DNA of 32,738 bases from a virus. Made by a program: the position numbers and the translations under genes. The stretch is from positions 1 to 32,738 of the IMG/VR virus record IMGVR_UViG_3300033141_003935; one strand, 5' to 3'. The stretch's first letter is position 1, and the number at the start of each line of letters is the position of its first letter. The notes beneath the pieces were generated by a model. The model was not told the DNA's origin and ran no database searches. It saw only the letters and a program-made list of their open reading frames with translations. Of this stretch, positions 1 to 21,682 are shown piece after piece.

Positions 1-1
1 A

Positions 2-394
2 TTAAAAGATTTGAAAAGTTTAGAAGATAGGGTTTGTGAAGAAGGTTTAGAATATTTCAAAACGAATTTTCCGAAGGGTGCAAAGGTTATAGATGTAATT
101 AGGAGATTGGAAGATGTAAAAAATCCAACAGGTTGGATCGGTTGGCTTTGTGATGTTTTTAAACTTACTTACGAAGCTAAAAAATGGTACAAGAACGGAC
201 AACTTAGATCTAATTGCAATTGCAAAGATGGGCAAAAGCATGGGCTTTGTCAGGGGCGGTACGAAAACGGAGACCTTGAATTTAGTTATAATTATAAAGA
301 TGATCAAAGGCACGGGCTTTGTCAGGAGTGGCATTCGAACGGGCAACTTTGGTCAAGTCGCAATTATAAAGATGGTGCATTAATAGAGGTCTAA
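2..394 (+). CDS. MORN_2-repeat protein, 5' end outside window (partial)
   Basis: The gene is open to the left edge; comparison with its neighbours shows that only about the first 10 codons are missing. The visible 130 residues hold the rest of the family N-terminal domain (CEEGLEYFKTNF, then VIDVIRRLE and WIGWLCDVFKLTYEAK). Three MORN_2-type repeats of 24 residues follow (WYKNGQLRS..., RYENGDLEF..., WHSNGQLWS...), the last one cut short at YKDGALIEV. MORN_2 repeats are typical of YwqK-like proteins; the biochemical role is unknown. It heads a tandem series of paralogues and is followed after 4 bp by a broken copy. The first internal in-frame initiation codon (TTG at 11) lies inside the conserved domain and is not a credible start. 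Confidence 0.8.
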   Translation, partial: LKDLKSLEDRVCEEGLEYFKTNFPKGAKVIDVIRRLEDVKNPTGWIGWLCDVFKLTYEAKKWYKNGQLRSNCNCKDGQKHGLCQGRYENGDLEFSYNYKDDQRHGLCQEWHSNGQLWSSRNYKDGALIEV

Positions 395-398
395 ACGC

Positions 399-936
399 AT
401 GGATAATTTAGAAAAGTTTATTACATTAAAAGATTTGAAAAGTTTAGAAGATAGGGTTTGTGAAGAAGGTTTAGAATATTTCAAAACGAATTGTAATTAG
501 GAGATTGGAAGACGTAAAAACTACAACATGTTGGATTGGTTGGCTTTGTATTGCTTTCAAACTTACTTACGAAGCTAAACGTTGGTACGAAAACGGGCAA
601 TTTCGATCTATTCGCAATTGCAAAGATGGTCAAAAGCACGGACTTTGTAAAGAATGGTACGAAAACGGACAACTTCGATCTAATTGCAATTGCAAAGATG
701 GTCGAAGACACGGACTTTGTCAAGATTGGTACGAGAGCGGGAAGCTTTGGTCAAGTTTTAATTACAAAGATGGTAAAGAGCATGGGCTTTGTCAAGATTG
801 GCATGAGAACGAGCAACTTTGGTCAAATTGTAATTACAAAGATGGTAAGCTACACGGACTTTCTCAAGATTGGAACGAGAGCGGGCAGATTTTATCTGAC
901 GATACCTATAAAGATGGTCATTTAATAAAGGGCTAA
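399..936 (+). pseudogene. Broken MORN_2-repeat paralogue (26-bp deletion, frameshift)
   Basis: Starts with ATG at 399 right after the previous stop, with MDNLEKFITLKDL as in the paralogues, but terminates at TAG 498-500 after 33 codons. Aligning the DNA with the preceding gene shows that 26 bp were lost after AAAACGAATT (near 492), removing the PKGAKVID part of the N-domain and shifting frame. The original frame resumes at about 501 and runs to the stop at 934-936, encoding the rest of the N-domain (EDVKTTTCWIGWLC) and five MORN_2 repeats. A TTG at 505 could restart translation of a 143-residue repeat-only product, but no good ribosome site precedes it. The repeats show no further stops, so the break is probably recent. 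Confidence 0.8.
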
Positions 937-938
937 TT

Positions 939-1427
939 ATGAGTAATTTAGAAAAATTTATAACATTAAAAGATTTGGAAGATTTGGAAGCTTGCGAGAA
1001 AGGCTTAAATTATTTCAAAACGAACTTTTCGAATGGCGCAAAGGTTATAGATGTAATTAAGAAATTAGAAGGTTCAAAAACTACAACAAGTTGGGTTTTT
1101 TGGCTTTGCAAAGCTTTCAAGCTTACTTATGAAGTCAAACGTTGGTACGAAAACGAGCAACTTTGGTCAAATTGTAATTACAAAGATGGTAAACTACACG
1201 GACTTTGTCAAGATTGGCACAAAAACGGACAATCTCTAACAAGTTATAATTACAAAGATGGTAAGGAGCATGGGCTTTGTCGATGGTGGTATTCAGATGG
1301 GCAACTTAGATTTAGTTATAATTACAAAGACGGTCAATGGCATGGGCTTTGTCGAGAATGGCACGAAAACGGACAACTTCAAACTAGTTACAATTATAAA
1401 GATGGTGAATTAATAATAGAGGATTAA
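939..1427 (+). CDS. MORN_2-repeat protein with family N-terminal domain
   Basis: 162 residues. Residues 1-65 are the family N-domain: MSNLEKFITLKDL, an acidic spacer, C-x3-GLNYFKTNF, NGAKVIDVIKKLE, then a tryptophan-rich segment ending in FKLTYE. Four 24-residue MORN_2 repeats follow, from WYENEQLWS to the truncated last unit ending YKDGELIIED. No signal peptide or membrane segment is visible, so a cytoplasmic location is likely. The start lies 2 bp after the previous stop, with an AAAGGG ribosome site inside the end of the previous gene, implying translational coupling along the array. The second repeat is unusual (QSLTSY). Function unknown; the repeat type matches YwqK-like proteins, often labelled antitoxin components without firm proof. 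Confidence 0.85.
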   Translation: MSNLEKFITLKDLEDLEACEKGLNYFKTNFSNGAKVIDVIKKLEGSKTTTSWVFWLCKAFKLTYEVKRWYENEQLWSNCNYKDGKLHGLCQDWHKNGQSLTSYNYKDGKEHGLCRWWYSDGQLRFSYNYKDGQWHGLCREWHENGQLQTSYNYKDGELIIED

Positions 1428-1429
1428 TT

Positions 1430-1651
1430 ATGAAAATTGTTAATATACGAAGTAAATTATGTAAACTAGAGCAATCTTTAAGTAGTGTTATTTTATATCA
1501 CGAAAACAACCATACGACATTTTTTAAAAATAATCAGAAGCTAGAAATGTTTAAGCAGGTTAGATTTGCTATTCGGCAAGCTATTCAGACAATTGATGAT
1601 TACGAATTTGAATCATTAAATAAAGGGGCTGATTATGAAATTAATATTTAA
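1430..1651 (+). CDS. Small hypothetical protein
   Basis: 73 residues, starting 2 bp after the preceding MORN_2 gene, with AGAGGA as ribosome site. The sequence (MKIVNIRSKLCKLEQSL...) looks helical, with no membrane segment and no motif I recognise. The stop overlaps the start of the next reading frame (ATG at 1635). It belongs to a three-gene insert, with the next ORF and a VRR-NUC nuclease gene, that interrupts the MORN_2 gene series. The clean ribosome site and spacing support it as real; a function cannot be assigned. Confidence 0.6.
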   Translation: MKIVNIRSKLCKLEQSLSSVILYHENNHTTFFKNNQKLEMFKQVRFAIRQAIQTIDDYEFESLNKGADYEINI

Positions 1652-1964
1652 TGTTAAGATTTTTATACAACTTCTTTTGATGGCTTTTTTTATTGGATCA
1701 ATCTCATTTATTTTAAAATATTGTAGTTGCGGTCAACTTGAGATGAAATCTTTAATACTTATTAAAAATGATTTTCGAATAATTAAAGATAGATTGGAGA
1801 AGTTGTTATTTATGCCTCAAAAGGGCATATGCGTTGTCAATTATAATTTTTTAATATATCTTCATAAGCATCATATATATAATTTTTTAAGGGTAGCTTA
1901 CTATGAAGATTGTTATCAGAGAACGCATCGTAAAACAAAAGATAGCGAAGTTGCTGAGGTGTAA
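1635..1964 (+). CDS. Putative small membrane protein (uncertain)
   Basis: 109-residue frame starting at ATG 1635, preceded by AAAGGGG, with a 17-bp overlap with the upstream gene. Residues 7-28 (FIQLLLMAFFIGSISFILKY) form one clear hydrophobic segment, suggesting an N-terminally anchored inner-membrane protein with a basic, helical tail. Its 3' end overlaps the VRR-NUC gene by 62 bp, more than its neighbours show, so the last ~20 residues may be fortuitous. No homologue recognised. It could be a small phage membrane protein of the kind often found between early genes. Confidence 0.45.
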   Translation: MKLIFNVKIFIQLLLMAFFIGSISFILKYCSCGQLEMKSLILIKNDFRIIKDRLEKLLFMPQKGICVVNYNFLIYLHKHHIYNFLRVAYYEDCYQRTHRKTKDSEVAEV

Positions 1965-2193
1965 CGGTGTATTTTATTTTATGCCGCAATCCGGCATTTA
2001 TGGAAAGGCGGGCATTGCAGATTTTGTTTGCTGTGTTGATGGTCGTTTTCTCGCTATAGAAGCTAAAGGAAGTAATGGGAAACAGACAGAACTGCAAAAA
2101 CAAAATGAATTAGCTGTGAAAAAAGCGAATGGAACTTATTTATTAATCGATGATAAAAATATATCGCAGCTAGAAAAGTTTATTGTTGGTTAA
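1903..2193 (+). CDS. VRR-NUC domain nuclease
   Basis: 96 residues covering a complete stand-alone VRR-NUC domain, a PD-(D/E)XK-type nuclease fold common in phages and linked to structure-specific cleavage (Holliday junction or flap processing). Visible family features: GKAGIADFVCCVDGRF with the catalytic Asp (the usual G-x-P-D appears as GIAD), FLAIEAKG with the catalytic E-x-K, then TELQKQNELAVKKANG with the Gln-containing helix and Gly. The start at 1903 has AAGGG 9 bp upstream. Placement amid replication genes fits processing of replication or recombination intermediates. It overlaps the preceding small membrane ORF, and the next MORN_2 gene follows after 13 bp. Confidence 0.85.
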   Translation: MKIVIRERIVKQKIAKLLRCNGVFYFMPQSGIYGKAGIADFVCCVDGRFLAIEAKGSNGKQTELQKQNELAVKKANGTYLLIDDKNISQLEKFIVG

Positions 2194-2206
2194 TATAGGA
2201 CTAATT

Positions 2207-2749
2207 ATGAGTAATTTAGAAAAGTTTATAACATCTAAAGATTTGAAAGCGTGCAAAGAAGGTTTAGATTATTTTAAAACGAACTTTCCGAATGGTGTGA
2301 AGGTTATAGATGTGATTAAGAAATTGGAAGACGTAAAAAATTCAACAGGTTGGATTTTTTGGTTATGCAAAGCATTTAAACTAGATTATATAGCTAAAAA
2401 TTGGTACGAGAGCGGACAACTTCGAACAAATTGCAATTTCAAAGATGGTCAATGGCACGGACTTTGTCAGGGATGGTTTAAAAGCGGAAAGCTTTGGTCA
2501 AGTTATAATTACAAAGATGGTCAATGGCACGGACTTTGTCAGGGATGGTTTGAAAGCGGAAAGCTTTGGTCAAGTCATAATTACAAAGATGGTCAATGGC
2601 ATGGGCTTTGTCGAGAATGGCACGAAAACGGGCAGCTTAAATCTAGTTATTTTTACAAAGAGGATCAAAAGCACGGACTTTGTCGAGAATGGTCTGAAAG
2701 CGGAAAGCTTCGATGTAGTGATGTTTTTAAAGACGATACGTTAAAATAG
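2207..2749 (+). CDS. MORN_2-repeat protein with family N-terminal domain
   Basis: 180 residues from ATG 2207, chosen over an in-frame TTG at 2183 because MSNLEKFIT is the shared family start and AGGA sits just upstream. The N-domain (KACKEGLDYFKTNF, NGVKVIDVIKKLE, WIFWLCKAFKLD) is followed by five 24-residue repeats. Repeats two and three (WFKSGKLWSS, WFESGKLWSS) are almost identical at the DNA level, a recent 72-bp duplication. Several units carry E-S-G-K-L in place of E-N-G-Q-L. The last repeat ends with DVFKDDTLK. Cytoplasmic, function unknown; the next paralogue starts 8 bp after its stop. Confidence 0.85.
   Translation: MSNLEKFITSKDLKACKEGLDYFKTNFPNGVKVIDVIKKLEDVKNSTGWIFWLCKAFKLDYIAKNWYESGQLRTNCNFKDGQWHGLCQGWFKSGKLWSSYNYKDGQWHGLCQGWFESGKLWSSHNYKDGQWHGLCREWHENGQLKSSYFYKEDQKHGLCREWSESGKLRCSDVFKDDTLK
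2474..2617 (+). repeat. Tandem 72-bp repeat unit duplication
   Basis: Two neighbouring 72-bp units (2474-2545 and 2546-2617) inside a MORN_2 gene share nearly all bases, including synonymous positions, differing by A/G in the third codon, a C/T in the tyrosine/histidine codon and changes near the end. The match extends upstream through GGTCAATGGCACGGACTTTG. This indicates recent slippage or unequal recombination rather than protein-level convergence. Confidence 0.8.
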
Positions 2750-2757
2750 GACTAAGC

Positions 2758-3309
2758 ATGAGTAATTTAGAAAAGTTTATAACATCTAAAGATTTGGAAA
2801 GATTAAAAGCTTGCAAAAAAGGCTTAAATTATTTCAAAACGAACTTTTCGAATGGCGCGAAGGTTATAGATGTGATTAAGAAATTGGAAGATATAAAAAC
2901 TACAACAAGTTGGATTGATTGGCTTTGCGATGTTTTTAAACTTACTTATAGGGCTAAAGAATGGTATCCAAACGGACAACTCGCGTCAAGTTATAACTAC
3001 AAAGATGGTCTATATCATGGGCTTTGTCTGAATTGGTATCCAAACGGACAGCTTTGGTCCAGCGATGTTTGTAAAAATGGTCGAAGGCACGGACTTTGTT
3101 TGGATTGGTACTCAACAGGACAACTCCAAACTAGTTACAATTGTAAAGACGGTCGAAGACACGGACTTTGTTTGGATTGGTACTCAACAGGACAACTCCA
3201 AACTAGTTATAATTACAAAGATGGTAAAGAGCATGGGCTTTGTGAAACCTGGCATTCAAACGGGCAGCTTTGGTCCAGCGATATTTATAAAGATGGTAAA
3301 TTAATGTAG
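2758..3309 (+). CDS. MORN_2-repeat protein with family N-terminal domain
   Basis: 183 residues. The N-domain runs to about residue 66 (MSNLEKFITSKDLERLKACKK..., YFKTNF, VIDVIKKLE, WIDWLCDVFKLTYRAK). Five repeats follow: two of the WYPNGQL type, two of the WYSTGQLQTS type that are DNA-level duplicates, and a last WHSNGQLWSSDIYKDGKLM unit. AGGACTAAGC precedes the ATG. The WYPNGQL and WYSTGQL units are specific to this member, so the paralogues differ mostly in the residues around the turn of each repeat. No membrane segment. Role unknown; same translationally coupled series as its neighbours. Confidence 0.85.
   Translation: MSNLEKFITSKDLERLKACKKGLNYFKTNFSNGAKVIDVIKKLEDIKTTTSWIDWLCDVFKLTYRAKEWYPNGQLASSYNYKDGLYHGLCLNWYPNGQLWSSDVCKNGRRHGLCLDWYSTGQLQTSYNCKDGRRHGLCLDWYSTGQLQTSYNYKDGKEHGLCETWHSNGQLWSSDIYKDGKLM
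3106..3249 (+). repeat. Tandem 72-bp repeat unit duplication
   Basis: The units 3106-3177 and 3178-3249 are a recent direct duplication inside the MORN_2 gene. The first ~45 bp (TGGTACTCAACAGGACAACT and beyond) are identical, and the preceding CGAAG[G/A]CACGGACTTTG is also shared. Differences are concentrated towards the end of the second unit. Confidence 0.8.
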
Positions 3310-3317
3310 GGCTAATT

Positions 3318-3815
3318 ATGAGTAATTTAGAGAAGTTTATTACATTAAAAGATTTAGAAAATGAAGCTTGTGAAGAAGGGTTAAACTATTTTAAAACGAA
3401 CTTTTCGAATGGCGCGAAGGTTATAGATGTAATTAAGAAATTAGAAGACTCGAAAACTACAGCATGTTGGATTTTTTGGCTTTGTGTTGCTTTCAAGCTT
3501 ACTTACGAAGCTAAAAAATGGTATAAGAAACGTTGGTACAAGAACGAGCAGCTTCTAGCAAATCACAGTTACAAAGATGGTAAGCCGCACGGACTTTGTC
3601 AGGGATGGTATAAGAACGGACAGCTTCAATATAGTTTTAATTATAAAGATGGTAAGGAGCATGGGCTTTGTCAGATTTGGTACGAAAACGGGCAACTTCA
3701 ATCAAGTTATCATTACAAAGATGGTAATGCATATGGAATTTGCTTATTTTGGCACGAAAACGGGCAGCTTTGGTCAGGTTGTGATTACAAAGATGGTTGT
3801 ATTTCCACACAATGA
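3318..3815 (+). CDS. MORN_2-repeat protein with family N-terminal domain
   Basis: 165 residues with the family N-domain (MSNLEKFITLKDLENEACE..., GLNYFKTNF, VIDVIKKLE, WIFWLCVAFKLTYEAK) and four MORN_2 repeats. The junction between domain and first repeat carries a small duplication, K-K-W-Y-K-K-R-W-Y-K, not seen in the other members. The last repeat ends in DYKDGCISTQ rather than the usual acidic tail. The stop TGA (3813-3815) overlaps the ATG of the helicase gene as ATGA, so helicase translation is probably coupled to this gene. Function unknown. Confidence 0.85.
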   Translation: MSNLEKFITLKDLENEACEEGLNYFKTNFSNGAKVIDVIKKLEDSKTTACWIFWLCVAFKLTYEAKKWYKKRWYKNEQLLANHSYKDGKPHGLCQGWYKNGQLQYSFNYKDGKEHGLCQIWYENGQLQSSYHYKDGNAYGICLFWHENGQLWSGCDYKDGCISTQ

Positions 3816-5356
3816 TATATAGAGATAAATATTTAATTTTAGATGGTAAGTTCCCTTTTGGAATTAATAAAGTTATTAAGCATAAGGAAGTTACGATCTT
3901 GCCATGGACTTATGAAAATTATATTTTTTGCCTAAATAATAATATTAAAAATTTACCGTCTCCGATGGAGACTTTTAATTGGTACTTGTCGCCACTAAAA
4001 CCATACGATCATCAGAAAATAACATCAAATTTTTTAGTTTTGAATGAACGGGCTTTTTGTTGGAATGAGGCGGGAACCGGTAAAAGCGCATCTTGTGTTT
4101 GGGCGTATTGCTATCTTATTAAAAACCATCCTTCCATAATACTAAATCCTCGAATGATGATCGTATGCCCTTTATCTACTGTAAAATCAGTGTGGAGCAA
4201 AGAGATTTTTATGATTGCTCCTTATCTACATGTTGCTGAGATATTAGGTAGTCGAGATAGGAAAATTAAATTATTAAAAAAAGATCCTCAGGTTATAATT
4301 GTAAATCACGATGGTATTAAATCATTAAATAGCGAACTAAAAAAATGGAATCCTGCCATCATAATCATTGATGAGAGCACTGCTTTTAAAAATGCAAGGA
4401 CAGATCGATGGCGAGCTTTGAGAAATCTTGTGAAAGATACTGCATATTTATGGTTATTAAGTGGTACGCCTGCACCTCAAGCGCCTACTGATTTGTACGC
4501 TCAGGCAAGACTTGTATGTCCTGAAAAAGTTGGTAGAAGTTTTTTACGTTTTCGTGATTTGGTTATGCGCCAAGCTTCTCAGTATTCCTGGGTAGCCAAA
4601 CCAGACTGGCAAAACATCATTAAAGACGTTATCCAACCTGTTATTAGGTTTTCGCGGGAAGATTGCATTGATTTGCCTGCAGTTGTTGAGCAAAATTACG
4701 AAGTTAGTTTAAGCCTTTTGCAGAAGCAAACTTTTGCAACATTGCGTAAAAGGGCTGTAGTACTAACTCAGGAAGGTACTATAACAGCTGTTAATGAAGG
4801 CGTGATGCGTAACAAGTTATTACAATGTTGCGCTGGGTATGTCTACCTTATTGATGATACAACTGGAGAACGTATAACTAAGGATCTAAATCCTGATAAT
4901 CGCATAAGAGCGTTGCTTGATTTGGTTAACGAGACTGATCGCGGAGTGTTAGTGTTTGCTCCATTTCTAAATGCTATAAAATTTATTTCTAAGCATTTCA
5001 ATGCTAATAAAATTTTATACGATGTTATAACCGGCGAAGTTTCTGTTAAAAAAAGATCTATTATATTTAATAAATTTCAAAAAGGAGAGATTAAAGTTTT
5101 AATCGCGCATCCTAAGACAATGGCTCATGGTGTTACGCTTACTTATGCGGATACTGTAATATGGTATCTGGTAACAAGTGATAATGAGCTTTACGAACAA
5201 GCTAACAGTCGCATACAACGCATTGGGCAATATCATAAAATGCGTATTATACAATTACTCAGTACAAATTTAGAGCAAAACGTTCTAAAAAGATTAAAAC
5301 AAAAGCAAACAATGCAAGGTGTTTTGCTTGAAACGTTGGGGCAAAATAAATTGTAA
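3812..5356 (+). CDS. SNF2-like DEAD/DEAH-box helicase
   Basis: 514 residues, a superfamily 2 ATPase/helicase close in style to the compact SNF2-like enzymes of phages. Visible motifs: Walker A W-N-E-A-G-T-G-K-S near residues 84-92, motif II I-I-D-E-S near 187 (DES instead of DEAH), motif III-like L-S-G-T-P-A-P near 215, and motif VI Q-R-I-G-Q near 469, typical of SNF2 proteins. It lacks the long insertions of chromatin remodellers. Likely role: DNA translocation or strand remodelling in phage replication or recombination. ATG 3812 was chosen because of the ATGA overlap with the MORN_2 gene upstream; a TTG at 3797 is the alternative. A promoter follows its stop. Confidence 0.88.
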   Translation: MIYRDKYLILDGKFPFGINKVIKHKEVTILPWTYENYIFCLNNNIKNLPSPMETFNWYLSPLKPYDHQKITSNFLVLNERAFCWNEAGTGKSASCVWAYCYLIKNHPSIILNPRMMIVCPLSTVKSVWSKEIFMIAPYLHVAEILGSRDRKIKLLKKDPQVIIVNHDGIKSLNSELKKWNPAIIIIDESTAFKNARTDRWRALRNLVKDTAYLWLLSGTPAPQAPTDLYAQARLVCPEKVGRSFLRFRDLVMRQASQYSWVAKPDWQNIIKDVIQPVIRFSREDCIDLPAVVEQNYEVSLSLLQKQTFATLRKRAVVLTQEGTITAVNEGVMRNKLLQCCAGYVYLIDDTTGERITKDLNPDNRIRALLDLVNETDRGVLVFAPFLNAIKFISKHFNANKILYDVITGEVSVKKRSIIFNKFQKGEIKVLIAHPKTMAHGVTLTYADTVIWYLVTSDNELYEQANSRIQRIGQYHKMRIIQLLSTNLEQNVLKRLKQKQTMQGVLLETLGQNKL

Positions 5357-5363
5357 AGATAAC

Positions 5364-5391
5364 TTGACTTTATAATTTAAATTTGTATACT
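5364..5391 (+). promoter_or_regulatory. Sigma70-type promoter
   Basis: TTGACT (5364-5369), a 16-bp spacer and TATACT (5386-5391) lie in the gap between the helicase gene and the fused MORN_2 gene at 5424. The 15-mer AACTTGACTTTATAA (5361-5375) recurs exactly at 13862-13876 in another inter-operon gap, which supports a regulatory role. Confidence 0.65.
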
Positions 5392-5423
5392 AGCCCTATT
5401 GATAATTAAAAAGTAGGTGTTTT

Positions 5424-6827
5424 ATGCCAGTATTGACAGTAGGTAATTTATTGAACGAAGACGAAGTAAGCATGTGTCCATTTTGTAATCAGACGTGTTT
5501 TTATGAAATAGAGTATAACTCTGATTCGTCTACTTTCTTAACTAATACAGCTTGTTTCAGAGCAGGTTGTCGATGTCGTGATGGCTTTATAGTTTCAAAA
5601 ATTGCTACTAATAACTTTGATAGTCTCAGTTCGGAATGGCGTGTGTTTCAAATGATGGGGTTATTAAGTCTTTATGTCCAGTCTGCTAAATTTTGGATAA
5701 GAGAACGGAGACTGGAGGCTAAAGATGGTGAATTAGAAGACAGTAAGGATGATCCTTTAGAAAAGTTTGTAACGTTAGAAGATTTGAAAATATTAGGAAC
5801 TCGCGAGGCAGTCTTAAACTATTTCAAAATGAACTTTACGGTTGGCACGAAGGTTATAGATGTAATTAGGAAATTGGAAGCTGTAAAAATTACAGTAGGT
5901 TGGATTGATTGGCTTTGTGTTGTTTTCAAACTTACTTACGAAGCTAAAGAATGGTACGGAAACGGGCAATTTAAATCTAGTTACAATTATAAAAACGGTC
6001 TAAAACACGGACTTTGTCGATGGTGGTACGAAAACGGACAACTTTGGTCAAGTTATAATTACAAAGATGGTAAGGAACATGGGCTTTGTCAAAGTTGGAA
6101 TTCAGATGAGCAACTTCAATCTAGTTTTAATTACAAAGATGGTGAATTAATAGAAGACCCTAGCGATGATCCTTTGCATAAATTTATAACATTACAAGAT
6201 TTAGAAAATTTAGGAGCTTGTGGAGCAGTCTTAAACTATTTTAAAACAAACTTTCTAAATGGTGCGCAGATTATAGATGTAATTAAGGGATTAGAAGATG
6301 TAAAAACTACAACAGATTGGATTGATTGGCTTTGTGATACTTTCAAACTTACTTACGAAGCTAGACGTTGGTATGAAAACGGGCAACTTAGGTCGAGTTA
6401 CAATTACAAAGATGGTAAAAGGCACGGACTTTTTCAACGTTGGTCTTCAGATGGGCGATTTCGATTTAGTTGTAATTATAGCGATGGTCCTTTAGAAAAA
6501 TTTATAACATTAAAAGATTTGGAAAGATTAGGAGCTTGCAAAGAAGTCTTAGAATATTTCAAAACGAACTTTCTAAATGGTGCACAGATTATAGATGTAA
6601 TTAAGGGATTAGAAGATATAAAAACTACAACATGTTGGATTGATTGGCTTTGTGAAGCTTTCAAGCTTACTTATAAAGCTAGATGTTGGCACAAAAACGG
6701 GCAGCTTAGGTCAAGTTATAATTACAAAGATGGTCAATGGTATGGACTTTGTAAAGAATGGCACGAAAACGGACAACTTCGAAATAGTTACACTTATGAT
6801 GATGGTGGATTAATAGTAAAGGGCTAA
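5424..6827 (+). CDS. Zinc-ribbon protein fused to three N-domain/MORN_2 modules
   Basis: 467 residues. Residues 1-60 contain C-P-F-C...C...G-C-R-C, a zinc-ribbon arrangement resembling small phage proteins of the Lar (restriction alleviation) type; this resemblance is weak. After a linker, three complete family modules follow in one frame: N-domain starting LEKFVTLEDL plus three repeats, N-domain LHKFITLQDL plus two repeats, and N-domain LEKFITLKDL plus two repeats. The last two modules join directly (NYSDGPLEKF), as if intergenic starts and stops had been lost between former separate genes. ATG 5424 follows GTAGGTG, and a TTGACT-16-TATACT promoter lies just upstream. The role is unknown; the fusion suggests that several N-domain/MORN_2 modules can act in one chain. 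Confidence 0.8.
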   Translation: MPVLTVGNLLNEDEVSMCPFCNQTCFYEIEYNSDSSTFLTNTACFRAGCRCRDGFIVSKIATNNFDSLSSEWRVFQMMGLLSLYVQSAKFWIRERRLEAKDGELEDSKDDPLEKFVTLEDLKILGTREAVLNYFKMNFTVGTKVIDVIRKLEAVKITVGWIDWLCVVFKLTYEAKEWYGNGQFKSSYNYKNGLKHGLCRWWYENGQLWSSYNYKDGKEHGLCQSWNSDEQLQSSFNYKDGELIEDPSDDPLHKFITLQDLENLGACGAVLNYFKTNFLNGAQIIDVIKGLEDVKTTTDWIDWLCDTFKLTYEARRWYENGQLRSSYNYKDGKRHGLFQRWSSDGRFRFSCNYSDGPLEKFITLKDLERLGACKEVLEYFKTNFLNGAQIIDVIKGLEDIKTTTCWIDWLCEAFKLTYKARCWHKNGQLRSSYNYKDGQWYGLCKEWHENGQLRNSYTYDDGGLIVKG

Positions 6828-6829
6828 TT

Positions 6830-7552
6830 ATGAGTAATTTAGAGAAGTTTATTACATTAAAAGATTTGAAAGATTTGGAAGATTTGAAAGTTTGTGAAGA
6901 GGGTTTAGAATATTTCAAAACGAACTTTTCGAATGGTGCACAGATTATAGATGTAATTAAGAGATTGGAAGACATAAAAACTACAACATGTTGGATTGAT
7001 TGGCTTTGTATAGTTTTCAAACTTACTTATGAAACTAAACGTTGGTACGAAAACGGACAATTTCGATCTATTTGCAATTGCAAAGATGGTCAAAAGCACG
7101 GACTTTGTCGATGGTGGTATGAAAACGGGCAGCCCCAATCAAAATACAATTACAAAGATGGTAAAGAGCATGAACTTTGTTGGCATTGGTATGAGAACGG
7201 ACAGCCCCAATCAAAATACAATTACAAAGATGGTAAAGAGCATGAACTTTGTTGGCATTGGTATGAGAACGGACAGCTTGAATGTAGTTATAACTACAAC
7301 TTTGGTCTATACCATGGGCTTTGTCAGATTTGGTACGAAAACGGGCAACTTAAATCTAGTTATAATTATAATTATAATTATAAAGATGGTAAAGAGCATG
7401 GACTTTGTAAAATGTGGTACGAAAACGGGCAACTTAAATCTAGTTATAATTACAAAAAGGGTCAAAGACATGGGCTTTGTCAGATTTGGGACGAAAACAG
7501 GCAGCTTAGATCTAGTGATAATTATAAAGATGGTCATTTAATAGATTGTTGA
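6830..7552 (+). CDS. MORN_2-repeat protein, longest repeat tract
   Basis: 240 residues: the N-domain (MSNLEKFITLKDLKDLEDLK, GLEYFKTNF, IIDVIKRLED, WIDWLC) and seven MORN_2 repeats, the largest number in a single-domain member. Repeats two and three are a 72-bp DNA duplication (WYENGQPQSKY...). Repeat five contains an expanded Y-N-Y-N-Y-N-Y stretch caused by a short TATAAT tandem repeat, lengthening it by four residues. The final unit is D-E-N-R-Q-L-R-S and ends in DGHLIDC. It starts 2 bp after the fused gene's stop, with AAAGGG upstream. It is followed by the DNA polymerase gene. Function unknown. Confidence 0.85.
   Translation: MSNLEKFITLKDLKDLEDLKVCEEGLEYFKTNFSNGAQIIDVIKRLEDIKTTTCWIDWLCIVFKLTYETKRWYENGQFRSICNCKDGQKHGLCRWWYENGQPQSKYNYKDGKEHELCWHWYENGQPQSKYNYKDGKEHELCWHWYENGQLECSYNYNFGLYHGLCQIWYENGQLKSSYNYNYNYKDGKEHGLCKMWYENGQLKSSYNYKKGQRHGLCQIWDENRQLRSSDNYKDGHLIDC
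7115..7258 (+). repeat. Tandem 72-bp repeat unit duplication
   Basis: Units 7115-7186 and 7187-7258 are identical except for two A/G changes in the GAAAACGGGCAG versus GAGAACGGACAG part. This is the cleanest sign of recent unit copying in the MORN_2 family in this window. Confidence 0.9.
7361..7384 (+). repeat. Short TATAAT tandem repeat in coding sequence
   Basis: About four copies of the hexamer TATAAT (the last ends TATAAA), encoding alternating Tyr-Asn within one MORN_2 repeat. The tract adds 12 bp to the normal 72-bp unit, so the frame is kept. It is a plausible slippage site. Confidence 0.75.
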
Positions 7553-15807: not shown

Positions 15808-16893
15808 ATGTACGATCGTAGTGATGTTGAAAATATTCTTATAGATGTAAAGAGTTTTAGTCTTTACATGCCGAAAGACATCCGCTATATAGTTTTGAAT
15901 GAAAAAGGAAATAAATTCGATGAGTCGATGTACGGACCAATGATTTCAATAATATATAAATGCAAGTTTTCACAGACGACAAGGGCGCATTTTGATAAAA
16001 TATATCAGACTTTAGAGGAAGCGGAGCAGGATTATCTGAGGCTGATAAATTATTTTGAAAAGGATTTTAAAGATTTAAAACTCGGTAACAACAGAATTTT
16101 CATACCAGTTCGCCGAATAGAAGCTGCCTTACATCACAATGTTTATTCGGGAGCTGAGTTAGATTTGGATTTGGGTGATGTACCTGGTAACTTACCTGAT
16201 AATTTACGTTATGTTGCTTTTAAGAATGTTTTAAAATCGGACTTTGATTGTTTTATTGCGCAAATTGAGAGTCTTCGAAGTAAAAATAGACAACTTATAC
16301 AGAGTTATTCTTTTATTAACCTTCCTGAGTTTAGTTGCTATACCAAAACAAGCGATTTTTATTCTCTATTACTTTTTAATTCTTATAATAAAGATTCTGA
16401 CGGTACTATAACTACTACTAAGCCTGCGATTTCGATTAGTACTCGTCTTCGGTTTTGTTTGACAACCTTTTTTAGCACTTTTGATGAAGCGAAAGCAGCT
16501 TATGCGAAAGTGAAAGCTATTTTGGATTATCATTCGAATGAATTCATCGAAGTTGTTTGTGATGAAAGTAAAATTTATACAAATCGTAATTTTGATATTT
16601 TGGCGAGTTATCAGATCGGTCACAAATCGCATCAAAAGATTAAGGTTGAAATTCTTATACCTTCTAAATTTGGGCAAATTTACGCTCCATCGTTAATATT
16701 TAAATATAGTAATTCCGAAGATATAAAACATCATTATTTGGCGCTAGTTGATCAAATACGCAATAAACAGGCATTAAAGGCGTCTCGACCGCAATTAGCT
16801 TCTAAACATTTGTTTTGGAACGATATGCAGATTATTGAAAAGGATGCTAAGGATGCTATTGAGAAGGATTGGGTGCTAATTAACCACGTTTAA
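15808..16893 (+). CDS. Hypothetical protein with internal duplication
   Basis: 361 residues, no membrane segment, no recognised domain. Two halves resemble one another: M-P-K-D-I-R-Y near residue 21 followed by ISIIYKCKFSQTT...TLEEAEQDYLRLINYFEKDF, and L-P-D-N-L-R-Y near 129 followed by AISISTRLRFCLTT...TFDEAKAAYAKVKAILDYHSNEF. The shared plan is a beta-strand-rich segment followed by a long helix. A GAGGTGACTT leader, the same as before the gene at 9496, precedes the ATG. A strong terminator lies 8 bp after the stop, so this is the last gene of its operon. Confidence 0.7.
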   Translation: MYDRSDVENILIDVKSFSLYMPKDIRYIVLNEKGNKFDESMYGPMISIIYKCKFSQTTRAHFDKIYQTLEEAEQDYLRLINYFEKDFKDLKLGNNRIFIPVRRIEAALHHNVYSGAELDLDLGDVPGNLPDNLRYVAFKNVLKSDFDCFIAQIESLRSKNRQLIQSYSFINLPEFSCYTKTSDFYSLLLFNSYNKDSDGTITTTKPAISISTRLRFCLTTFFSTFDEAKAAYAKVKAILDYHSNEFIEVVCDESKIYTNRNFDILASYQIGHKSHQKIKVEILIPSKFGQIYAPSLIFKYSNSEDIKHHYLALVDQIRNKQALKASRPQLASKHLFWNDMQIIEKDAKDAIEKDWVLINHV

Positions 16894-16901
16894 TTGATAA
16901 G

Positions 16902-16933
16902 AGTCGTACTTGAATTAGTGCGGCTTTATTTTT
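16902..16933 (+). terminator. Rho-independent terminator
   Basis: An 8-bp stem AGTCGTAC (16902-16909) / GTGCGGCT (16918-16925), with two G-T pairs and an 8-nt loop, is followed by TTATTTTT. It closes the plus-strand operon ending at 16893. Its T-tract is also the first part of the direct repeat that starts at 16926. Confidence 0.75.
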
Positions 16934-16953
16934 CAATGCCAGCACCGCGTTGG
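16926..16953 (+). repeat. Cassette-boundary direct repeat, copy 1
   Basis: 28 bp beginning TTATTTTTCAATGCCAGC and ending ACCGCGTTGG, identical to copy 3 (17903-17930). It contains an imperfect dyad CAATGC-N7-GCGTTG. It lies between the terminator stem and the lone MORN_2 gene. Confidence 0.85.
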
Positions 16954-16986
16954 CTAACAATTTATGATATAGAGGTGTAAAAATAA

Positions 16987-17412
16987 ATGAAGAATTACTT
17001 GGAAGATGACGGCGTTCAAGTATGGTGGTATGACAATGGGCAAATAAAAGAAATAAAAACATCAGGCAATAAGGCGAAAGGTTTTTGGCAACGTTGGCAT
17101 GAAAACGGGCAGACAGATATTATTTTCAGAGGCGATACTTATATAAGATATTATGACACAGGTCAAATAGCAAATAAGGGCAACTATACTAAATACAGTG
17201 ATAGAACTGGTAAGTGGGAAGCTTTTTTCGAGGATGGAAGTGTAAAATCAATCTCACACTTTAAAGACGGAAAGTTACACGGATATCGTGAAGTTCGTAA
17301 CGCCGCTGGTGATATAACCTACAAAGGAAGTTATAAAAATGGATATGAAGATAGTGTTGATGGAAGGGGTGCAAAAGTAATTATAGAAACTCTTACGGGA
17401 GTGTATGGCTAA
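16987..17412 (+). CDS. Lone MORN_2-type (YwqK-like) protein
   Basis: 141 residues made almost wholly of divergent MORN_2 repeats: VWWYDNGQIKEI, RWHENGQTDIIF, RYYDTGQIANKG, AFFEDGSVKSIS followed by HFKDGKLHGYREV. It lacks the N-domain of the 0-7.5 kb family and its repeats are far less uniform, so it is a separate lineage rather than a recent copy. AGAGGTG precedes the ATG. It sits between copies 1 and 2 of the 26-28-bp direct repeat, as a one-gene cassette. Related proteins are often annotated as YwqK antitoxins; no partner toxin is visible beside it. Confidence 0.75.
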   Translation: MKNYLEDDGVQVWWYDNGQIKEIKTSGNKAKGFWQRWHENGQTDIIFRGDTYIRYYDTGQIANKGNYTKYSDRTGKWEAFFEDGSVKSISHFKDGKLHGYREVRNAAGDITYKGSYKNGYEDSVDGRGAKVIIETLTGVYG

Positions 17413-17427
17413 TCATTACTAGTTATT

Positions 17428-17453
17428 TTATTTTTCAATGCCAGTACCGCGTT
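17428..17453 (+). repeat. Cassette-boundary direct repeat, copy 2
   Basis: 26 bp matching the other two copies except for one C-to-T change (AGTACC instead of AGCACC), diverging after GCGTT. It lies 15 bp after the MORN_2 cassette gene and just before the leader of the next gene. Confidence 0.8.
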
Positions 17454-17469
17454 TTATATTTTTACAACA
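17452..17469 (+). repeat. 18-bp leader repeat, copy 1
   Basis: TTTTATATTTTTACAACA, followed by TTTTAGAGG, lies directly upstream of the gene starting at 17486. The same 18 bases occur at 18738-18755 upstream of the zinc-ribbon gene, also followed by a TTTTAAGAGG ribosome site. It may be a shared promoter or leader; AT-richness weakens the case slightly. Confidence 0.6.
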
Positions 17470-17485
17470 TTTTAGAGGGACAACT

Positions 17486-17893
17486 ATGAAAACAATGGAC
17501 ATTAACATCCTTAGGGATTTATGCGAAAGGCGCGAAAAAGAAAAATTAATAATTGATAAGGAATTATCGCATATTAGGGCTTTAATAGCTTTATGTGAAG
17601 ATGCCCAAAATGACACTGGGGGGAAGCATAAAAAAATAAATAAAGGGAAGGTGGTAAATGACGCATGCAGAGATATGATTGGAGAATTTTGCTCTAATGA
17701 TATTAAAGAGATACTAAATAATTATATTGATGCGGAGGTAAGGCAAATTACTTTATCCTATATTTCGGCGCTGTTAGGGAAATTATCGAAAGCGGGGGTA
17801 TTGGTTAGATCAAAACGGGGGCTCAGAGTGGGTAGTTCTAATTATTATGTGGTGAAACCTGAGGGCGGGATTAATAATGCTAAAGAAGGCTGA
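17486..17893 (+). CDS. Coiled-coil / winged-helix-like protein
   Basis: 135 residues from ATG 17486, chosen over an in-frame ATG at 17438 because AGAGGGA lies just upstream and the earlier ATG falls within the direct repeat. Residues 1-45 (MKTMDINILRDLCERREKEK to IRALIALCED) look like a coiled coil. The C-terminal 70 residues (IKEILNNYI, ITLSYISALLGKLSKAGVLV, RSKRGLRVGSSNYYVVKP) have a winged-helix pattern: helix, recognition-like helix, then two strands with a wing. A small DNA-binding regulator is likely but not shown. It fills the interval between direct-repeat copies 2 and 3. Confidence 0.65.
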   Translation: MKTMDINILRDLCERREKEKLIIDKELSHIRALIALCEDAQNDTGGKHKKINKGKVVNDACRDMIGEFCSNDIKEILNNYIDAEVRQITLSYISALLGKLSKAGVLVRSKRGLRVGSSNYYVVKPEGGINNAKEG

Positions 17894-17902
17894 ATACCTA
17901 CA

Positions 17903-17930
17903 TTATTTTTCAATGCCAGCACCGCGTTGG
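17903..17930 (+). repeat. Cassette-boundary direct repeat, copy 3
   Basis: 28 bp identical to 16926-16953. On the minus strand it encodes the last residues (Q-R-G-A-G-I-E-K-stop) of the gene at 17903-18319, so here the repeat doubles as coding sequence; similarity with copy 1 continues weakly for another ~8 bp (TTGGYTARC). Confidence 0.85.
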
Positions 17931-18319
17931 TTAGCTATAATAGTTAATATCCGTAGGGTGTCATCGTGTTGTTCTTTTATTGTAGATTTAAAATTTGTAA
18001 TTTCATCTTTAATGTCTTGATGTAGTTTTTCGAGTGCTATCGATAACGTATCTTTAGTAATATAATTAGAATTTAATTCTCTGTTAAGGTCGCTACATTT
18101 TTTTTTGAATTCATTTTTAGTTACAAAATTAGAGAGTGTCCACAAGAACAGGTAGATAGTTGTACATGCCATTAATATCGCAAGAAAGAATTCGGATTTT
18201 TCTAACACTTCGAAATGTGTCGAGATAAACGTATCATAGAAATTATTAAATTTCATGGCTAAGGTAACAAATAATCCAATACCACTGAATATACTTATTA
18301 TCTTGATGTTTTTATTCAT
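17903..18319 (-). CDS. Membrane protein with coiled-coil tail
   Basis: 138 residues with two hydrophobic segments (IISIFSGIGLFVTLAM near 7-22 and FFLAILMACTTIYLFLW near 44-60), then a charged coiled-coil-like tail (KKCSDLNRELNSN ... IALEKLHQDIKDEITN). The ATG overlaps the stop of the upstream membrane gene as ATGA. Two membrane segments plus a coiled coil would suit a holin or lysis accessory protein, by context only. The final eight codons and the stop coincide exactly with the direct repeat found twice more at 16926 and 17428, so the 3' end may have been supplied or copied by that repeat. Confidence 0.65.
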   Translation of the reverse strand: MNKNIKIISIFSGIGLFVTLAMKFNNFYDTFISTHFEVLEKSEFFLAILMACTTIYLFLWTLSNFVTKNEFKKKCSDLNRELNSNYITKDTLSIALEKLHQDIKDEITNFKSTIKEQHDDTLRILTIIANQRGAGIEK

Positions 18320-18672
18320 TTTTTGTTTATTTGTAAAACGGTCACTATTGCTACAGTAGTTAGAAGAACAGTATTAATGCTAAAAGCTATCGCCATAGCT
18401 TGCGGATAAATAGCTCCTAAATCTTTAGAGAGGTATAGTAGATAATTGATAATATAACTTGAAAAGCATATCAGAGCACTAGCACGTAGCGCTTTAGTAG
18501 TTTTAGTATAATATACATAGGACGCTGCTAAAAAGCCGTAAATTACGCTGAATCCGCTAAAGCGTTCTATAAATAATTTTATTTGTAATGGGAAGGAGTT
18601 TATTATTACTATTAAAGTTAGCAAAACTGATAGTGATATTAAAACCGCAGCTATTAATTTAGTATGTTTCAT
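18316..18672 (-). CDS. Small polytopic membrane protein (holin-like paralogue 1)
   Basis: 118 residues starting MKHTKLIAAVLISLS at ATG 18672 (AAAGAGAAACC upstream); an upstream in-frame start at 18708 lacks a ribosome site. About four hydrophobic segments are visible. The C-terminal half (YIINYLLYLSKDLGAIY, AMAIAFSINTVLLTTVAIVT, VLQINKK) closely matches the shorter protein at 19459-19698, so the two are paralogues. Size, topology and closeness to amidase and GTA-type holin suggest a holin-like role. It may instead be an antiholin; the sequence does not decide. Confidence 0.7.
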   Translation of the reverse strand: MKHTKLIAAVLISLSVLLTLIVIINSFPLQIKLFIERFSGFSVIYGFLAASYVYYTKTTKALRASALICFSSYIINYLLYLSKDLGAIYPQAMAIAFSINTVLLTTVAIVTVLQINKK

Positions 18673-18737: not shown

Positions 18738-18755
18738 TTTTATATTTTTACAACA
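18738..18755 (+). repeat. 18-bp leader repeat, copy 2
   Basis: Identical to 17452-17469. It precedes the plus-strand zinc-ribbon gene and is followed by TTTTAAGAGGAG, which includes the ribosome site. Confidence 0.6.
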
Positions 18756-18779
18756 ATTTTAAGAGGAGTAGTGGTTGAC

Positions 18780-19010
18780 ATGACTGATGATACAAATGAT
18801 ACAAATTACTGTTGTAGGCGCTTTCAAACTGATGAAACAAATTACTGTTTTTGGCGACTTCAAAAGGATACACATTGTAAAAACGCAACGTACGAGACGG
18901 ATTGTGGGTCAAGATATACATTTTCAAGTGGACGTATTAAAGACCATTACTACCATACGTTTTGCCCCTACTGTGGCAGAGAATATAAAGAAGTGAAGGA
19001 TGAGCAATAG
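18780..19010 (+). CDS. Small zinc-ribbon-like phage protein
   Basis: 76 residues from ATG 18780; a GTG at 18771 is too close to the AAGAGGAG site. The C-terminal half matches a common small phage pattern: HCKNATYETDCGSRYTF ... F-C-P-Y-C-G-R-E-Y, with the terminal C-x2-C and the upstream Cys residues likely binding zinc. The N-terminal part has two near-copies of T-N-Y-C-x-x-R-x-Q from a 36-bp imperfect duplication (18801-18828 and 18837-18864). It is the only plus-strand gene among minus-strand lysis genes. Its end abuts the holin gene tail to tail. Role unknown. Confidence 0.65.
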   Translation: MTDDTNDTNYCCRRFQTDETNYCFWRLQKDTHCKNATYETDCGSRYTFSSGRIKDHYYHTFCPYCGREYKEVKDEQ

Positions 19011-19440: not shown

Positions 19441-19458
19441 TATTCGTCCTCGATATTT

Positions 19459-19698
19459 TTATTCATTTTTTCTCAATTTCTCAATTTGCAAAACCGTAGC
19501 AATCGTAACAGTAATTAGTAAAATCGTATTAAAACTGAAAGCTATCACCATAGCTTTCAGATAACTAACACCCAAATCCATTGAAAGGCATAATACGTAA
19601 TTAATCATATACGCCAGTATCAAAACTCCTAAAGAAACAATTAATGCGCCTGTAACTAACGCACCTATAACCATCGTCACCAATTTAAGTTTTTTCAT
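19459..19698 (-). CDS. Small membrane protein (holin-like paralogue 2)
   Basis: 79 residues with two strong hydrophobic segments (VTMVIGALVTGALIVSLGVL and AFSFNTILLITVTIATVLQI) separated by Y-M-I-N-Y-V-L-C-L-S-M-D-L-G. It is homologous to the C-terminal two thirds of the 118-residue protein at 18316-18672. The start ATG touches the amidase stop (TAAATG), so the genes are coupled. Two membrane segments, this size and the position between amidase and GTA-type holin suggest a holin or antiholin. Confidence 0.7.
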   Translation of the reverse strand: MKKLKLVTMVIGALVTGALIVSLGVLILAYMINYVLCLSMDLGVSYLKAMVIAFSFNTILLITVTIATVLQIEKLRKNE

Positions 19699-20483: not shown

Positions 20484-20558
20484 TGGTTGCAGAGGTGGGA
20501 TTTGAACCCACGACCTCCTGCTTATGAGACAGGTTAGCTACCACTGCTATACTCTGCT
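20484..20558 (-). tRNA. tRNA with CAT anticodon (Met or Ile2)
   Basis: 75 nt folding as a full cloverleaf on the minus strand. Acceptor AGCAGAG / CTCTGCA (first pair A-A mismatched), D stem TAGC / GCTA with loop AGTGGTA, anticodon stem CCTGT / GCAGG with loop CTCATAA, 5-nt variable loop AGGTC, T stem GTGGG / CCCAC with loop TTCAAAT, discriminator A and encoded CCA. The anticodon stem lacks the three G-C pairs of initiator tRNA, so an elongator Met, or an Ile2 read after lysidine modification, is more likely. It starts 1 nt after the stop of the Acb2-like gene, so it must be cut out of the operon mRNA. Confidence 0.93.
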
Positions 20559-20559
20559 A

Positions 20560-20883
20560 TTACTTGTTATTACTTCCTTCAACCCCTCTCTTTTCCCTAT
20601 CCATTTTACGTGATAAAAGCCATAGGTATGCCTCTTCTAACTTAGTTATCGCGATATTATTTTCGCGGCATTCCAAATTTTTATTAAATGATTTTAAAAT
20701 ATCTCTTAAGACTAAAATTAAATCATCTATTTGAATCCCATTGACTCCTACTTCTTTAATGGGAGCACTTTGTAATTGAACTTCAATTTTTGATATAGGA
20801 TTGTTATTGGCAAAATCAAAAACCTTATCTAAATCAATATTATGAGAATTTAATTGTAAGAAATTTTTAATAAGTATCTCCAA
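20560..20883 (-). CDS. Acb2/Tad1-hairpin-like phage protein (candidate anti-CBASS/Thoeris)
   Basis: 107 residues. The C-terminal half carries the marks of a phage family I recall as containing the Acb2/Tad1 hairpin domain: A-P-I-K-E-V-G-V-N-G, then D-D-L-I-L-V-L-R-D-I-L, C-R-E-N-N-I-A-I-T-K-L-E-E-A, Y-L-W-L, and R-x-x-R-G-V-E-G near the end. Acb2 and Tad1 bind cyclic-nucleotide or cADPR-type signals and so blunt CBASS or Thoeris defence; activity here is inferred from the motif only. The start is TTG at 20883, 2 bp after the upstream stop and without a ribosome site, implying coupled translation. The tRNA follows its stop by 1 nt. Confidence 0.6.
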   Translation of the reverse strand: MEILIKNFLQLNSHNIDLDKVFDFANNNPISKIEVQLQSAPIKEVGVNGIQIDDLILVLRDILKSFNKNLECRENNIAITKLEEAYLWLLSRKMDREKRGVEGSNNK

Positions 20884-21085: not shown

Positions 21086-21682
21086 TTAAATATTTATTTT
21101 ATAAGAAACTGAAAAACCATATAAATCCAAACTCGGCTGTTGCTTTTTATAAATTATATCTACCGGATTTTTAGAGCCGCCGTTGTAGTGTGACCATGAA
21201 ACGCCGGCAGTTAAGTTTTTAGAGATTTTATAGTCTAGCCCCGCACCGTAGGTAATATTTATTTTATCTTTATTAAATTTCTCACCATCCAAAGGCTGAA
21301 AATAAGTGACCCCACCGCGAGCATATGCAATGAAGCTTTCATCGAGAGGAATGTTCACGCGGAGGGTCAAATCGGCTATCTGCTGTTTGATTTTAAAATT
21401 TTTAATCACTTTATCGTTGATTGCGAATTTTAAATCACGTTTATCAGTAATCAAATACCCCGTTTCTACAGCAAAATGTTTTGTAAAATTATATCCAACA
21501 AAAGCACGTCCTGCAAAATTGGTTGTATGCTCTTTGAATAAGTTATTATTAAGACCGTCATAAACGAAACCGCCTGTTGCGCCTACGTAAACAGACTTGT
21601 TTGAATTGGTTTTTGGCGATACGCCATTGGCAAATACATTGCAACTAACTACTAGTAATGCCGCTAAAAATATTTTTTTCAT
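21086..21682 (-). CDS. Outer-membrane beta-barrel protein (OmpA/Lom-like moron)
   Basis: 198 residues. An N-terminal signal peptide (MKKIFLAALLVVS...VFA, cleavage probably after residue 19) precedes an 8-strand-type barrel: VYVGATGGFVYDGL, AGRAFVGYNFTKHFAVETGY, ADLTLRVNIPLDESFIAYAR, GGVTYFQPL, TYGAGLDYKISKNLTAGVSW and a final Y-G-F-S-V-S-Y-K-I-N-I. Alternating hydrophobic strands and the YNFTKHFAVETGY pattern are typical of OmpA-like barrels. The V-V-S-C within the signal could be a lipobox, but a barrel favours ordinary processing. In phages such genes (for example Lom of lambda) alter the lysogen's surface. GGTAAG precedes the ATG. Confidence 0.85.
   Translation of the reverse strand: MKKIFLAALLVVSCNVFANGVSPKTNSNKSVYVGATGGFVYDGLNNNLFKEHTTNFAGRAFVGYNFTKHFAVETGYLITDKRDLKFAINDKVIKNFKIKQQIADLTLRVNIPLDESFIAYARGGVTYFQPLDGEKFNKDKINITYGAGLDYKISKNLTAGVSWSHYNGGSKNPVDIIYKKQQPSLDLYGFSVSYKINI

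Follow-up and report, generated by a model that had tools for sequence, protein, structure and literature searches.

The early and late genes of a tailed phage converge at a site that carries three copies of a short sequence, all in one orientation, and each of the two intervals between these copies holds a single gene. The locus raises the question of whether these repeats are the seams left by the addition of genes or elements that serve the genes behind them. The window, by which we mean the whole stretch of 32,738 nucleotides that was analysed, comprises positions 1 to 32,738 of IMG/VR virus record IMGVR_UViG_3300033141_003935. This contig is probably a fragment, and the phage it comes from is tailed, with a baseplate of the contractile type. 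Its plus-strand block encodes a family A DNA polymerase, an SNF2-type helicase, a DUF927 primase/helicase-like protein, an RNA ligase and many MORN_2 paralogs, and its minus-strand block carries genes for amidase, holin and the baseplate. The two blocks, early (+) and late (-), meet head-on at about 17.9 kb, so a preliminary description of the sequence was right to place the repeats at an early/late junction.

Several features of the two blocks are recorded here in their own right. About ten tandem MORN_2 paralogs occupy window positions 1-7552 and have a common N-terminal domain (MSNLEKFITLKDLE...) and start region; several are fused into a single open reading frame (ORF; 5424-6827), and the family is a strong lineage-specific expansion. 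Within the late block lie a tRNA-Met (CAT) gene (20484-20558, minus strand) and, adjoining the lysis and tail genes, a gene for an OmpA-type outer-membrane beta-barrel (21086-21682, minus strand; Pfam E = 1.8e-16), which points to a Gram-negative host. A 107-aa ORF (20560-20883, minus strand) matches phrog_2428 strongly (E = 1e-21) and the Acb2/Tad1 hairpin domain below threshold (E = 0.0013), and on this sequence similarity its product is possibly related to anti-CBASS/anti-Thoeris sponge proteins. PADLOC reported no defence genes among the proteins tested.

The elements of the junction and of the adjacent late block are, in order along the window:

15808-16893, plus strand: ORF for a 361-aa protein, the last gene of the early block, directly before the terminator-like hairpin
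16900-16927, plus strand: terminator-like hairpin (stem of 11 bp); repeat copy 1 starts with its T-tract, TTTATTTTT
16926-16953, plus strand: repeat copy 1, 28 bp
16987-17412, plus strand: cassette 1, gene, with its own ribosome site, for a 141-aa MORN_2-repeat protein (Pfam PF07661, E = 5e-15)
17428-17453, plus strand: repeat copy 2, 26 bp with one mismatch, diverging past GCGTT
17452-17478, plus strand: leader of cassette 2, TTTTATATTTTTACAACATTTTAGAGG, which begins at the end of copy 2
17486-17893, plus strand: cassette 2, gene for a 135-aa protein with its own ribosome site and weak winged-helix (Rrf2-type) similarity
17903-17930, plus strand: repeat copy 3, 28 bp, identical to copy 1
17903-18319, minus strand: ORF for a 138-aa protein, the last gene of the late block as read, ending within repeat copy 3
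18738-18766, plus strand: recurrence of the cassette-2 leader, here lacking the repeat, located by local alignment
18780-19010, plus strand: 76-aa Cys-rich ORF within the late minus-strand block, behind the second leader copy

The three direct copies, beginning at 16926, 17428 and 17903, have in common a 26-bp block, TTATTTTTCAATGCCAGYACCGCGTT, in which copy 2 departs from copies 1 and 3 by a single C/T difference. Copies 1 and 3 are the same over 28 bp and 96.8% identical over 31 bp, and the sequence searches thereby confirmed the number, positions and 28-bp identity given in the preliminary description. When up to three mismatches to the core were allowed, the window returned three matches, exactly these copies, and with up to two mismatches the entire viral record yielded the same three only. 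Chance would be expected to supply 0.00 matches in the window for a 20-mer and 0.12 for a 16-mer, and exact direct repeats within 1.5 kb reached at most 17 bp in 30 simulated windows. The three-copy repeat is far above chance. Near-identity is limited to the 26-28 bp, with alignments of the 40-bp flanks lacking significant similarity, and the repeat therefore has the hallmark of a boundary sequence, namely a short, near-identical sequence at gene borders with unrelated flanks. Few pairs of comparable intergenic repeats (at least 18 bp) occur in 113 other phage loci (about 1.29 Mb); the pattern is uncommon, not unique.

No comparable distinction attaches to the symmetry of the repeat. The dyad CAATGC-N7-GCGTTG, singled out in the preliminary description, proved unexceptional, since a dyad of matching quality is present when the repeat is shuffled (22% of cases) and in 33% of random 28-mers. 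Folding of the repeat copies was no better than that of shuffles, and Rfam gave no family match across the region. Both the dyad and an RNA hairpin were thus rejected as significant features of the repeat when set against shuffled or random controls.

The outer copies overlap functional elements of the two converging blocks. The early block ends at the terminator-like hairpin, which forms the main stem of the fold of the region (region z = -2.25) and takes its T-tract from copy 1; the 361-aa protein encoded directly before it has no notable match in Pfam or PHROG. Copy 3, in the minus-strand reading, supplies the final nine codons and stop (NQRGAGIEK*) of ORF 17903-18319, whose 138-aa product has hydrophobic segments and carries a probable coiled coil. 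The stop inside copy 3 proves little alone, because an arbitrary frame that enters the repeat would stop there by chance about one time in three. The repeats bound single-gene intervals as first described, but copy 3 is not purely intergenic, since it forms the 3' end of a minus-strand ORF.

Each interval holds one complete gene with a ribosome site, as had been noted, and the first of these indeed encodes a MORN_2 protein. The second had been called winged-helix-like, of which a weak Rrf2-type similarity stands: the best profile match (E = 0.0076) falls below the cut-off and the structure model has low confidence (pLDDT 47.6), although the predicted helix order and two strands of the 135-aa protein are compatible with a winged helix. 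The CAATGC of the repeat precedes the start codon by 53 nt in cassette 1 and by 50 nt in cassette 2. The two copies of the cassette-2 leader match at 27 of 29 aligned positions, with two single-base gaps, and their local alignment score of 44 compares with a null maximum of 36 in 200 shuffles. The 76-aa Cys-rich ORF behind the second leader copy probably encodes a zinc-ribbon protein, its PHROG, Pfam and phage matches all being weak, and can be read as a third moron-like single gene, antisense in the late block.

The moron concept, which reportedly comes from Juhala and colleagues in 2000, is that of autonomous single genes inserted between phage genes. The cassettes resemble morons in being single genes with their own leaders, placed between the early terminator and the convergent block, and in having a third such ORF antisense within the late block; they differ in that repeat copies bracket the genes. 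A moron is also expected to have its own promoter and terminator. A terminator-like hairpin precedes cassette 1 only, and promoter-like matches (60 in 9 kb, where 42.4 plus or minus 6.8 are expected) are scattered, with no specificity for the cassettes.

We propose, with about an even chance of being correct, that the repeat is a junction or 'boundary' sequence that was duplicated as two moron-like single genes joined the convergent point. The ancestral, empty site would have held a single copy, with the early terminator hairpin on one side and the last late gene on the other, and this copy would have served at once as the T-tract of the terminator and the final codons of the late gene. Two single genes may then have been added successively where the early (+) and late (-) blocks converge, each insertion leaving a copy of the linker on either side. 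The route could have been homologous recombination or strand annealing with gene-plus-linker DNA, provided for example by the arrangement of a relative or by a circular gene-plus-linker molecule, or it could have been template switching. We infer the empty ancestor, the order of insertion and the recombination route; homologous or illegitimate recombination most likely added the genes. Cassette loss would be equally conceivable, by way of the 28 bp over which copies 1 and 3 are identical.

Copies 1 and 3 can be viewed as the two halves of one junction because copy 1 completes the T-tract and copy 3 the late gene, and copy 2, which has neither a terminator nor a coding role, is the diverged copy. 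Furthermore, linker and cassette appear to be separate modules because the cassette-2 leader starts at the end of copy 2 and recurs elsewhere without the repeat. Of the two modes of cassette insertion put forward in the preliminary description, a repeat-mediated one fits best, given the exact meeting of repeat and cassette-2 leader, the dissimilar flanks and the repeat-free convergent junctions of related contigs, whereas a site-specific one is disfavoured by the lack of attC boxes and of an integrase in the scanned proteins. Several points weigh against a duplicated boundary sequence. No close relative was found with an empty or differently filled junction, the near-constant distance from repeat to start codon is directly what a regulatory element would give, and the stop codon at the edge of copy 3 has the chance explanation given above once a frame enters the repeat.

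The main rival to boundary duplication is that the repeat is a cis-acting leader (a promoter, an activator or operator site, or a 5'-UTR element) that co-expresses the two small genes, with copy 3 as a leftover or autoregulatory copy. We regard this as possible and clearly the less probable of the two. The repeat lies ahead of both start codons in one orientation at the similar distances noted above, promoter-like matches overlap copies 2 and 3, and a ribosome-site-plus-start pattern occurs 55 nt downstream of copy 3, as it does at 2.5-4.5% of random positions. There is also phage precedent for repeats before a subset of gene starts (PMC3203893, PMC9753669). However, copy 3 has no gene behind it, the spacing between the repeat and -10-like elements varies, the repeat is missing before a gene that shares the cassette-2 leader, and the copies number three in all, every one at a single junction. 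From the sequence, a module-separating linker fits better than a promoter, because linker and leader part at one point, the flanks of the copies are unlike and the gene that shares the leader has no linker.

The closest precedent of this kind is the SAS of Cluster K mycobacteriophages, a 13 bp sequence that sits right at the translation start and numbers 11-19 copies per genome (PMC3203893). As with SAS/ESAS, some of the small genes have a short asymmetric repeat, in one orientation, ahead of their starts, but here there are three copies, about 50 nt upstream, the third without a gene, rather than many copies at translation starts. Repeated gene leaders occur independently in another phage contig (L069:4396-5040), where adjacent small genes are preceded by short intergenic repeats that span a ribosome site and start.

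A narrower regulatory proposal, which we think unlikely, is that the 135-aa winged-helix-like protein binds the repeat as an operator and thereby regulates its own gene and its neighbour. A regulator-like gene with weak Rrf2 similarity does lie directly behind one copy, and the repeat contains an imperfect dyad. This dyad is equally common in shuffled sequence, however, and is weaker in copy 2, the very copy that precedes the gene for the proposed regulator, and the protein model is the low-confidence one described above.

The preliminary description had itself raised the competing outcome that the repeats are only shared remnants of transcription terminators, which now appears quite improbable. 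Copy 1 does supply the T-tract of a good terminator-like hairpin. In copies 2 and 3, by contrast, both a scan and the folds find no hairpin before the T-tract, and the conserved core is located past the T-tract. A GC-rich hairpin with a T-tract exists at copy 1 only, and the terminator reading, which holds there, is largely refuted for copies 2 and 3.

Duplication of another kind is evident nearby. At the end of the late block, a separate 163-bp duplication (73% identity) relates positions 18302-18456 to 19449-19611 and includes the start of late gene 17903-18319, which indicates that the junction region undergoes duplication. It takes in half of a small membrane-protein gene (the 3' half) together with the opening codons of the gene that follows; behind its second copy lies only a stub of that following gene's start (MNKNIEDE*), and then the holin. 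Copies 1 and 2 might be remnants of duplicated 3' ends of late gene 17903-18319, for which we see a very slight chance. The common block coincides exactly with the final nine codons and stop of that gene, the outermost bases differing in copy 2, and the neighbouring duplication takes in its start; against this, the similarity stops short of the rest of the gene, and a stop at the repeat edge has the same one-in-three chance.

Least probable of all, to the point of being close to dismissed, is site-specific cassette integration of the type seen in an integron or CALIN array with attC sites: the repeat-gene-repeat-gene-repeat array has its genes in one orientation and phage CALINs are known, one of them just after a terminator (PMC9892861), but no exact GTTRRRY or RYYYAAC box occurs in any repeat and no spaced pair in the region, the repeats are 26-28 bp and have no conserved fold, and Pfam scans of most but not all ORFs detected no integrase domain. 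Integron gene cassettes and CALINs are documented in phages (PMC9892861), and the likeness to them (a one-orientation array of single genes with repeated sites after a terminator) is superficial, given that the repeat has neither the core boxes, the length nor the fold of attC. An attC identity was rejected on the defining boxes and the imperfect hairpin fold.

Alignment of the polymerase recovers relatives at about 30% identity that are linked by replication genes only. These contigs likewise change from plus to minus downstream of the replication genes, and one of them (G001/L041) has the same convergent layout, with a terminator-like hairpin ending the early block. There the hairpin is followed by one possible small plus-strand ORF (L041, 2690-2848), at which the gene caller preferred an overlapping minus-strand ORF. 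No such repeat is present at the convergent junctions of these replication-gene relatives, tblastn found no cassette-gene homologs in them (at about 30% protein identity), and their contigs have no homologs of the genes that flank the junction. An alignment of the holin brought in 80 loci, among which L058 alone has the tail module in common, and the repeat is absent from both the polymerase-aligned and the holin-aligned sets.

Broader searches gave a similar picture. IMG/VR and phage records yielded no relatives of the cassette or junction proteins: the phage collection has none of the 141-aa or 135-aa protein and IMG/VR none of the 135-aa protein. A single-protein polymerase scan and MORN-family scans of viral and genome contigs turned up no close relative. 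An exact scan for the repeat in 84,980 genomes had zero matches. Core-pattern scans of IMG/VR matched 8 contigs in one case and 18 in the other; all of the 18, and two from the set of 8, were viewed in context, where they neither extend the match nor contain a comparable junction and were put down to chance. Across the loci and databases searched, no locus outside the junction was found to share the repeat.

A duplicated boundary sequence has a ready counterpart in the boundary (linker) sequences that lie between lambdoid phage genes (Clark et al. 2001; Susskind and Botstein 1978, as cited in PMC3233612), and recombination targeted to short boundary sequences is a published model of phage mosaicism (PMC3233612). 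The repeat resembles them as a short, conserved border sequence that parts putatively exchangeable single-gene modules and is a possible target of homologous recombination, and differs in that its copies lie within one genome at one junction. We consider it very unlikely that a dedicated process inserts single genes at the convergent junction while duplicating the junction sequence, as a cassette system unlike integrons. The locus looks like ordinary phage mosaicism, or gene shuffling at short common sequences, and not like a new mobile-element system, and the repeat-bounded gene pair requires no new mechanism. Should the linker reading be right, the junction would be a natural site of deletion and exchange, and would provide a small, clear example of accessory-gene addition in a safe slot, with the recombination seam still visible.
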